The notes under the pieces are model-generated. The model was not told the DNA's origin and made no database searches. It saw only the letters and a program-made list of their open reading frames with translations. DNA of 64,000 nt from Pleomorphomonas diazotrophica (GTDB lineage: Bacteria; Pseudomonadota; Alphaproteobacteria; Rhizobiales; Pleomorphomonadaceae), in contig NZ_PJNW01000002.1 in assembly GCF_002844595.1 (NCBI RefSeq), positions 930,001 to 994,000 on the forward strand, in the 5' to 3' direction. The position numbers were made by a program, and so were the translations under genes. Of the stretch, positions 39,001 to 41,426 are shown piece after piece (the first letter of the stretch is position 1; each line of letters opens with the position of its first letter).

Positions 39001-39438
39001 TCACTCGCCGGTCCAGCGATCCCACCGCCGATCCATCCGGCGTTCAACCCGATAACCGATCCGTGCGTCGCGGCGAGCCTCGGCGCGCGGCGGCAACCCC
39101 GGACCAACGCCATAATAAGGCTGACCGACGTAATAGGCGTTGTGGTAGACGACCGGATCATAAACGATCACCGGATAGGCGGCGACCGGTCCCAGATAGG
39201 CAGCGGCCAACCAGCCTCGATAGCCGGCCCACCCGATGTCGCACCACCCCCGACCAGCCGTACAACCGAAGACGCTGACGGCCTGCCGGGCCGGAATGGT
39301 GGCAATCACCGGATAACCGGTGGCCGGCCCCGTTCGCAGGTTGAGTGCGGTGGTGGTGACCGACGTCTGAGCGTTGGCGCCCGTGACGAGGAGAAGGCCG
39401 GCCAGGCCGGCCGCGACGGATGTGAGCGCGCGATGCAT
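39001..39438 (-). CDS. Secreted SH3-domain protein
   Basis: 145 residues. A signal peptide (AGLLLVTGANAQ, cleavage near residue 24) is followed by an SH3-type domain: TTALNLRTGPATGYPVIATIPARQAVSVFGCTAGRGWCDIGWAGYRGWLAAAYL. The C-terminal part is Tyr/Pro/Arg rich and ends in a basic segment. AGGAG before ATG 39438. Its promoter carries the same bipartite element as the divergent EF-hand/ECF operon, so it is predicted to belong to that sigma factor's regulon. A cell-wall role is typical of SH3 proteins but not proven. Confidence 0.88.
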   Translation of the reverse strand: MHRALTSVAAGLAGLLLVTGANAQTSVTTTALNLRTGPATGYPVIATIPARQAVSVFGCTAGRGWCDIGWAGYRGWLAAAYLGPVAAYPVIVYDPVVYHNAYYVGQPYYGVGPGLPPRAEARRDARIGYRVERRMDRRWDRWTGE

Positions 39439-39499: not shown

Positions 39500-39531
39500 C
39501 TGTTACGTCGCCCCTCCCCGTCGACTGACGC
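39500..39531 (-). promoter_or_regulatory. Predicted ECF promoter of the SH3 gene
   Basis: Read on the minus strand: GCGTCAG, 12 bases, then GGCGACGTAACAG and CATCG. The element is identical in sequence and spacing to the one facing the EF-hand operon. The GCGTCAG and CGTAAC parts are 17 bases apart, a normal -35/-10 spacing. It lies 62-93 bases before the ATG. Confidence 0.6.
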
Positions 39532-39573
39532 TGCTGCGGTGTTTTTCTAGTTGGTGCTTTTTTGTCGACCGGC

Positions 39574-39605
39574 GCGTCAGCCGCGGCTCCTTGGCGACGT
39601 AACAG
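39574..39605 (+). promoter_or_regulatory. Predicted ECF promoter of the EF-hand/sigma operon
   Basis: GCGTCAG at 39574-39580, 12 bases, then GGCGACGTAACAG at 39593-39605, followed by GATCG, ending 30 bases before the ATG. It is the mirror copy of the element at 39500-39531. All 20 fixed positions match, which argues for one shared recognition factor, most simply the sigma factor encoded in this operon. Confidence 0.6.
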
Positions 39606-39635
39606 GATCGGTTCCAACCAGAAGGAGCATCAAAG

Positions 39636-40073
39636 ATGCGATCATTGACCAAGCTTCTTGTTGCCGGCACTCTTGTGGTGCTGTCGGTGCCGGCGGTGGC
39701 CGGCGACCGTCTTGCCGATATCGCCTTCACGCGCGTGGACGCCAATGGCGACGGACAGCTCGACGCTGCTGAACTGCGGCAAGCCCGCGCCCAGCGGTTT
39801 GAACGGCTCGACGTCAACGGCGACCGCGTCATCACCATGGCGGAGCAGGCTGCGGCTGGCAGCCGGTTGTTCCGCCAAGCCGAAGCGCTCGAGGGCGCCA
39901 TGGCCATCAGGTTCGAGACCCTCGACACGAACGGCGATGGCCGGTTGACGCAAGACGAGTTTCTGGATGCCTCGAAGGGCACCCTGGCGACCCGGGCCGA
40001 CAAGGATGGAGACGGCAAGATTTCCAAAGCCGAATTCCATGCCGGGATCGAAGCGGCGCGCGCCCTACGCTGA
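39636..40073 (+). CDS. Secreted EF-hand (calmodulin-like) protein
   Basis: 145 residues. A signal peptide (residues 1-22, VPAVAG) precedes four EF-hand loops: DANGDGQLDAAE, DVNGDRVITMAE, DTNGDGRLTQDE and DKDGDGKISKAE, each with Asp at positions 1, 3 and 5 and Glu at 12, so calcium binding is very likely. It would act in the periplasm. AAGGAG precedes ATG 39636. It is the first gene of an operon with an ECF sigma factor, an anti-sigma and a sensor, so it may report calcium or metal stress to that system. Confidence 0.92.
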   Translation: MRSLTKLLVAGTLVVLSVPAVAGDRLADIAFTRVDANGDGQLDAAELRQARAQRFERLDVNGDRVITMAEQAAAGSRLFRQAEALEGAMAIRFETLDTNGDGRLTQDEFLDASKGTLATRADKDGDGKISKAEFHAGIEAARALR

Positions 40074-40097
40074 CGCACCTAAGTGCGAGGAAACCTC

Positions 40098-40658
40098 TTG
40101 GAGCAGTCCGACGAAGGTCTGATGCGGGCCGTGGCGGCCGGAGACGAGCGGGCCTTCCGCCGGCTCGTAGACCGCCATGGCCCAAAACTCAGGTCAATCG
40201 CCGGTCAGTTCCTCGACGCGGGCGAGGCCGACGACGCCGTGCAGGAAGCCTTGATCGGGCTCTGGCGCCACGCCAGCCGCTTCGATCCGACCAAGGCCAC
40301 GCTGTCCACCTGGCTTTATCGCATCGTCGTCAATCGCTGCATCGACATTCGCCGGCGGCGTCTTCGATGGCCGTGGAGCCCCCTTGACGAGGCAGAGGGT
40401 GTGGCGTCAGCCGACATCGCTGCCGACAGGACTCTTTCCGGGGTCGAAACGCTCAGGAATGTGCAGGCGGTCATCGCTGCCCTGCCGCCGCGGCAGCGAA
40501 TGGCGTTGATGCTGGCCACCGTCGGCGACCGATCGGCCGAGGAGATAGCCGCGCTCCTCAACATCTCACGCGCCGCGGCGGAACAGTTGATCGCTCGCGC
40601 TCGAAGAAGCGTCAGGGCTGTAATGAGGGAGCCGGCCGATGGATCGGACCGAGTTTGA
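40098..40658 (+). CDS. ECF-type RNA polymerase sigma factor
   Basis: 186 residues. Sigma region 2 (AFRRLVDRHGPKLRSIAGQFLDAGEADDAVQEALIGLWRHA...STWLYRIVVNRCIDIRRRR) and region 4 (LPPRQRMALMLATVGDRSAEEIAALLNISRAAAEQLIARARR) are both present, joined by a short linker, as in ECF factors. TTG 40098 is favoured by GAGGA 7 bases upstream; GTG 40083 is the alternative. The gene overlaps the next by 20 bases. Gene order with a single-span protein and a CnrX-like sensor resembles the CnrYXH layout. Confidence 0.9.
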   Translation: MEQSDEGLMRAVAAGDERAFRRLVDRHGPKLRSIAGQFLDAGEADDAVQEALIGLWRHASRFDPTKATLSTWLYRIVVNRCIDIRRRRLRWPWSPLDEAEGVASADIAADRTLSGVETLRNVQAVIAALPPRQRMALMLATVGDRSAEEIAALLNISRAAAEQLIARARRSVRAVMREPADGSDRV

Positions 40659-41043
40659 GAACAAGTTGCTGAGTTTCGGCGGTGACCTCGATCGCTGGCC
40701 ATCGCCAGAAGCAGAAGCGGCCGGGCATCTGCTGGCCACCGATCCGGAGAGCCGCGCGCTCCTAACGGAATCGCTGGCTATCGACAATGCCATCCGTGCG
40801 GCCGCGGAAGCGCCCCTCGACGCGGCATTGGTCGGGCGGATCATGACGGCGACACGGGCTCCGACTACCGGCGATGTGTTCAGCGGCTGGAGACGGGCGG
40901 TTCCGGCCGGTGCATTGATCGTCCTGCTCGTCGCCTCGCTCGGGTTCAAATCCGGCTACGACGGCGGCCTCGGGTTTGCCGAAGAGCTCGACCTTGCAGC
41001 CGCCGTGACCGGCGCAGCCTACAGTTTGGACAATCTGCCATGA
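40639..41043 (+). CDS. Putative anti-sigma factor (single-span)
   Basis: 134 residues. The N-terminal 80 residues are cytosolic and helical (FENKLLSFGGDLDRWPSPEAEAAGHLLATDPESRALL), a single span lies at about 86-104 (AVPAGALIVLLVASLGF), and a short periplasmic tail follows. No zinc-binding ZAS motif is seen. The overlap with the sigma gene and the 4-base overlap (ATGA) with the sensor gene suggest stoichiometric expression. The anti-sigma role is inferred from position and topology. Confidence 0.75.
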   Translation: MDRTEFENKLLSFGGDLDRWPSPEAEAAGHLLATDPESRALLTESLAIDNAIRAAAEAPLDAALVGRIMTATRAPTTGDVFSGWRRAVPAGALIVLLVASLGFKSGYDGGLGFAEELDLAAAVTGAAYSLDNLP

Positions 41044-41426
41044 TCACGTCGCGCCATCTTCTTCCGCTGCTCGCCGGGCTGCTTTGCCTGTCGTTGCTCG
41101 GCAACGTCTATGCCGTGAGCCGCCTCGCCGGCGACCGCGTTGGTCGAACCGCCTTCGCCGAGATGTCGACGCGGCAGTTCGACCCGGACTTCGGTCGTCT
41201 GGTTCGCCAGGAACTGCTTGGCCACGCTGGCGAACTAAGAGCCGCCATCACTGACCTGCGCCAGGCGCGCGGGCGCATGTTCGACCTCGCGGCCGCCAAC
41301 CCACCCGACCCCGTCGCGCTGGCTCAAGCCACGGCCGACGTGCGCACCGCCTTCACCAAGGCCCAGGCGATTTTCCATGACAGTGTCGTCGAGGCGGCGC
41401 AGCGAGCCACCGCCTCCAACCGCTAG
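41040..41426 (+). CDS. Periplasmic heavy-metal-sensor-like protein
   Basis: 128 residues. An N-terminal signal anchor (LLPLLAGLLCLSLLGNVYAV) is followed by a four-helix-type periplasmic domain with the pattern RAAITDLRQARGRMFDLAA...DPVALAQATADVRTAFTKAQAIFHDSVVEAA, typical of the CnrX/Spy-like heavy-metal sensor (metal resistor) family. There are few His or Met ligands, so true metal binding is uncertain. It ends the operon and may control release of the anti-sigma; the signal is unknown. Confidence 0.83.
   Translation: MITSRHLLPLLAGLLCLSLLGNVYAVSRLAGDRVGRTAFAEMSTRQFDPDFGRLVRQELLGHAGELRAAITDLRQARGRMFDLAAANPPDPVALAQATADVRTAFTKAQAIFHDSVVEAAQRATASNR

Follow-up and report, generated by a model that had tools for sequence, protein, structure and literature searches.

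A conserved pair of probable divergent ECF-type promoters in Pleomorphomonas, probably read by the sigma factor encoded beside them

In a stretch of 64,000 nucleotides from Pleomorphomonas diazotrophica (the window, to which all positions refer), two divergent genes are each preceded by the same bipartite element. These elements are very likely divergent ECF-type promoters, with GCGTCAG as -35 element, a spacer of 16-17 nt and CGTAAC as -10 element, which would be read by the sigma factor encoded at 40083-40658. On the sequence comparisons presented here, the pair is real and conserved, and autoregulation by this sigma factor is probable.

GCGTCAG-N12-GGCGACGTAACAG was found in two exact copies, the minus-strand one at 39500-39531 and the plus-strand one at 39574-39605. 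Read in its own direction, the minus copy (39531-39500) is GCGTCAG TCGACGGGGAGG GGCGACGTAACAG C ATCG and the plus copy (39574-39605) is GCGTCAG CCGCGGCTCCTT GGCGACGTAACAG G ATCG. The sequence-only reading had described one identical motif per divergent gene, with 20 matching fixed bases, a spacer of equal length and 17 nt between GCGTCAG and CGTAAC, and this description was confirmed. All 20 fixed bases agree, and the N12 spacers of the two copies are unrelated. Each copy also points at its own gene, as had been claimed: from the end of CGTAAC it is 32 nt to the ATG of the EF-hand gene (39636) on one side and 63 nt to the ATG of the SH3 gene (39438) on the other. With up to three mismatches allowed, the window contained these two copies alone, compared to 0.05 expected from shuffled sequences.

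In the promoter of the EF-hand/ECF operon, the -35 element GCGTCAG is located at 39574-39580 and the -10 element CGTAACAG at 39598-39605 (both plus strand). The exact copies that form the promoter of the SH3 gene are located at 39525-39531 and 39500-39507, respectively (both minus strand). Between the two -35 elements lies a 42-nt stretch with T/A tracts (39532-39573). These tracts are kept in congeners, the sequence itself is not, and the stretch may provide UP-element-like DNA for either promoter. A search of the DNA between the SH3 and EF-hand genes revealed neither a sigma-70-like promoter nor the EcfG pattern GGAAC-N14..18-GTT, and the elements are no match to the EcfG consensus, as had been stated before.

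The minus-strand gene (39001-39438, SD AAGGAG) encodes a secreted SH3_3-domain protein (Pfam SH3_3, 3e-12). On the plus strand, the operon begins with the gene of a secreted EF-hand protein (39636-40073; Pfam EF-hand_1, 1.1e-20), followed by the ECF sigma factor gene (40083-40658; Sigma70_r2, 6e-21; Sigma70_r4_2, 9e-14). The sigma factor has 191 aa and, according to Pfam, sigma-70 regions 2 and 4 only, as in a plain two-domain ECF; its closest solved relatives are sigma-E (1or7) and CnrH (4cxf). Overlapping the sigma gene by 20 nt is a putative anti-sigma gene (40639-41043, plus strand), assigned by its position, its conservation beside ECF genes and its predicted fold. The product has a helical N-terminal domain with a GxDxxRWP motif and then one predicted TM helix, and the N-terminal helices were predicted with high confidence in the structure model. 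No Pfam family matched this protein. Comparison of the predicted fold with solved structures yielded no significant match and no solved anti-sigma among the matches, and profile matches to PDB chains were at chance level and were dismissed. The last gene (41040-41426, plus strand) encodes a Metal_resist protein resembling periplasmic heavy-metal sensors of the CnrX-type family (PF13801, 5.5e-10).

A paralogous pair of an ECF and an RWP-type anti-sigma, belonging to a different ECF clade, was seen elsewhere in the same genome (G000:C8:270713-271476, locus L139). The paralogous ECFs of the source genome (contigs C8 and C38) fall into other ECF groups or resisted placement.

We compared the locus within the genus. 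The anti-sigma candidate is present in 7 of 14 Pleomorphomonas genomes, and an SH3 orthologue (80-88% identical outside the source genome) occurs in the same seven and in none of the others (G007, G008, G010, G012, G013, G015 and G018). Since the anti-sigma and SH3 genes are both missing in half of the genus, the module seems to have been gained or lost as a block. All seven orthologous operons and all seven SH3 genes keep their element (14 of 14 sites). On the EF side, the mean pairwise identity across the seven loci was 92.5% for the -35 and 96.4% for the -10 element; on the SH3 side it was 100% and 96.4%, respectively. Outside these blocks the loci are less alike, with spacers sharing 55-58% identity and flanks 39-60%. 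Blocks that are kept while the flanks diverge are the pattern expected for promoters under selection. The core conserved across congeners is CGTCAG-N16/17-CGTA(A/C)(C/A)AG, with CGTCAG invariant in all seven on the EF side and the complete GCGTCAG on the SH3 side. The additional GGCGA and the trailing ATCG did not show block conservation. The spacer measures 17 nt, except that three genomes have one of 16 nt on their EF side; a shift of at most 1 nt is as one would expect for a promoter. The joint occurrence of motif and sigma gene, which had been proposed as a check in related genomes, held in all seven, but it is a weak test and nearly automatic within the genus, since the sites are themselves part of the module.

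In the leader of the EF-hand gene after the -10 element (39606-39630, plus strand) we noted the sequence GGTTCCAACCAGAAGGAG. A CCAACCA-like block and the SD of this leader are better kept than the remaining flank in most of the seven genomes.

Outside the genus, no sigma orthologue was detected at E <= 1e-40 among 249 genomes. Therefore, distant homologues were sought with a profile of the anti-sigma candidate, which brought up related proteins in 38 further genomes from the same order. Twenty-six of these loci were examined. In the great majority the ECF gene directly precedes the anti-sigma gene, and the whole gene order of EF-hand, ECF, anti-sigma and Metal_resist recurs in many of them. 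The Metal_resist gene follows the anti-sigma gene in homologous operons as well. A secreted EF-hand gene directly upstream of the ECF gene is found here and in many families of the order. One locus retrieved by the query, L037 ('Rhizobium sp.'), contained neither module genes nor the motif and was set aside as a chance match. Across many families of the order, genes for single-TM proteins with an N-terminal GxDxxRWP and no Pfam match were seen after ECF genes; these proteins are candidates for an unnamed anti-sigma family.

Many homologous operons of other families carry CGTA elements upstream. In one sister clade, CGCAGGG-N15-CGT was present 61-81 nt before the EF-hand start in nine of nine operons (L101, L102, L104, L105, L111, L113, L115, L132 and L135), compared to 0.0085 expected by chance, with the reservation that the nine are not independent because all come from one family (f34). 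Written as CAG-N17-CGT, this motif is in register with the CAG-N17-CGTA of Pleomorphomonas, a match that we spotted after the fact. A second set of operons, grouped by eye, carries CGTAGG, preceded in some of them by an A-rich G(G)AAAAA. Placed on the sigma tree, the three promoter types require two changes, which is the minimum, a test that is inflated by related sequences. The CGT -10 element is thus shared throughout the sigma clade, and the -35 type varies by sigma subclade, as expected of a sigma factor that reads the promoter of its own operon. Recognition of both promoters by the local sigma is strongly suggested by these data. The proposal of an autoregulated promoter pair, made from the window alone, gained support from the orthologue conservation and from this tracking of the -35 type. 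The accompanying idea of a new ECF promoter type stands in part: the -35 element is particular to the genus, and the CGT/CGTA -10 element belongs to the whole sigma clade.

The extent of the regulon was addressed with the degenerate pattern CGTCAG-N16/17-CGTAMMAG, which covers all 14 sites. In the 14 genus genomes it gave three extra matches, one of them in a genome that lacks the module, and in the source genome it gave the two known sites and none besides. The exact motif had otherwise six stray matches in 298 genomes of the order, similar to the reversed control and hence at chance level. A short pattern with two mismatches showed no excess in the source genome (109 matches vs 145 in the reversed control). 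A third exact GCGTCAG-N17-CGTAAC (C6:98536) lies within a LacI-family coding sequence, is missing the rest of the element and was rejected as a target. From the near-absence of the motif elsewhere, the regulon looks local, consisting of the operon itself and one effector; weak sites are conceivable. The SH3 gene is the sole other target found in the source genome, and no metal efflux pump was among the targets.

In 13 genomes of the sister genus, a search for CGCAGGG-N15-CGT gave 14 matches, five of which led to EF-hand genes of this family. Several others were seen 32-50 nt before genes of small proteins with a signal peptide, a hint that the regulon may be wider there.

These scans also bear on the possibility that another ECF sigma, whose gene lies outside this locus, reads the two promoters and controls the operon from above. 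At least eight other ECF-like proteins are encoded in the genome, and such cascades have precedents in RpoE6 acting on rpoE8 in Azospirillum (PMC12826043) and SigT acting on sigV in Caulobacter (PMC13171946). However, a broader regulon would be expected from such a regulator, yet outside the module the 14 genus genomes lack the motif save for the three scattered matches, and the -35 type goes with the clade to which the local sigma belongs. We therefore consider a sigma cascade unlikely. By analogy with the Caulobacter case, cross-activation of the two promoters by another ECF may occur.

The internal likeness of GCGTCAG and CGTAACAG, which share CGT-(AA)-CAG, raises the question of transcription-factor operators, in the form of a direct repeat CGTCAG / CGTaaCAG about 23-24 nt apart with one pair per promoter; the equal orientation of both copies to their genes would fit as well. 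This reading is somewhat less probable still. The conserved module does not include a transcription factor gene, although a downstream LacI-type gene adjoins it in one congener too, the spacing shifts by 1 nt in three genomes, and no sigma-70-like promoter was found there to be regulated. Furthermore, the -35 and -10 elements of the sister operons (CGCAGGG and CGTGACAA) no longer resemble each other. Ordinary conserved intergenic DNA or a chance likeness without promoter function is highly improbable. CGTC-like words are frequent in GC-rich DNA, but only 0.05 copies were expected in the window and 14 of 14 sites were kept in seven diverged loci despite changed flanks.

ECF-type promoters read by the local sigma thus remain the favored explanation. 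An AAC core is common in the -35 elements of ECF promoters, and its absence from GCGTCAG counts against this explanation. The following sequence of events would fit the arrangement. One promoter would serve the sigma operon with its EF-hand protein, sigma, anti-sigma and metal-sensor-like protein, and the other would serve a single effector gene, that of the secreted SH3 protein. Without a signal, the membrane-bound RWP-type anti-sigma would hold the sigma factor. Its release would follow an envelope signal, in whose sensing the periplasmic Metal_resist protein, the EF-hand protein or both would take part. The freed sigma would then activate both promoters, thereby amplifying its own operon and inducing the SH3 protein. 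That the membrane protein acts as an anti-sigma and that the signal is metal or calcium we infer from gene order and from knowledge of the families.

More tentatively, and with slightly less than even confidence, we propose that the -35 element and sigma region 4 changed together within one ECF clade, with CGCAGGG or G(G)AAAAA giving way to GCGTCAG. The result would be an insulated circuit of two promoters, with the SH3 protein as its sole effector in the genus and perhaps with the role of reporting periplasmic calcium or metal to the envelope. The module is compact and well bounded, with four genes in the operon, a single effector, two identical promoters and no other clear genomic site. Sigma factor, promoters and -35 variants can be compared across sister clades, which is useful for learning how region 4 changes its specificity, and the module could be useful as an insulated switch.

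Judged from the open-access literature that we searched, what appears to be new is the sequence of the -35 element and the SH3 gene as a target, and the kind of system is already known; a motif for this ECF group may have been published. The -35 element GCGTCAG is unlike those of EcfG (ECF15; GGAAC-N16-GTT) and of the Sinorhizobium RpoE1 type (GAAT-N18-GTCT; PMC3616915). More similar is the ECF41 promoter TGTCACA-N16-CGTC (Sinorhizobium RpoE9 type; PMC3616915), which has a GTCA-type -35 and a CGT -10 as here, and also the same spacing when our motif is written CGTCAGY-N16-CGTA. In contrast, ECF41 sigmas carry a fused C-terminal domain (PMC3426412); the sigma described here has none and is accompanied by a separate membrane protein. 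As a plain ECF of 191 aa with a -35 element different from TGTCACA, it does not qualify as an ECF41 member.

In the CnrYXH system of Cupriavidus metallidurans (ECF20-like), an ECF sigma is likewise accompanied by a sensor of the Metal_resist/CnrX kind and by an anti-sigma in the membrane, for which the locus described here has a putative counterpart. CnrYXH also has two local sigma-dependent promoters, for regulatory and for effector genes (PMC9045368). It differs in that CnrH drives an RND efflux pump, an EF-hand protein is absent, the gene order is Y-X-H and the host belongs to another group (PMC9045368). Moreover, no similarity to a known family was detected for the anti-sigma candidate described here. 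The nearest systems with experimental support are those of Azospirillum and Caulobacter. In Azospirillum brasilense, the rpoE8 operon has the order sigma, unnamed protein and periplasmic heavy metal sensor; RpoE8 activates its own promoter in E. coli, and RpoE6 activates it too. The accessible part of that source reports no EF-hand or divergent SH3 gene (PMC12826043). In Caulobacter vibrioides a periplasmic EF-hand gene, cabp, directly precedes the ECF gene sigV; SigV activates cabp, and both promoters are also under SigT (PMC13171946). In contrast to the pair described here, the cabp promoter is GGAAA-13-CGTTCA and sigV has its own promoter inside cabp. An anti-sigma was not identified in that study (PMC13171946), and the RWP-type candidate could fill this link left open in the CaBP-SigV work.
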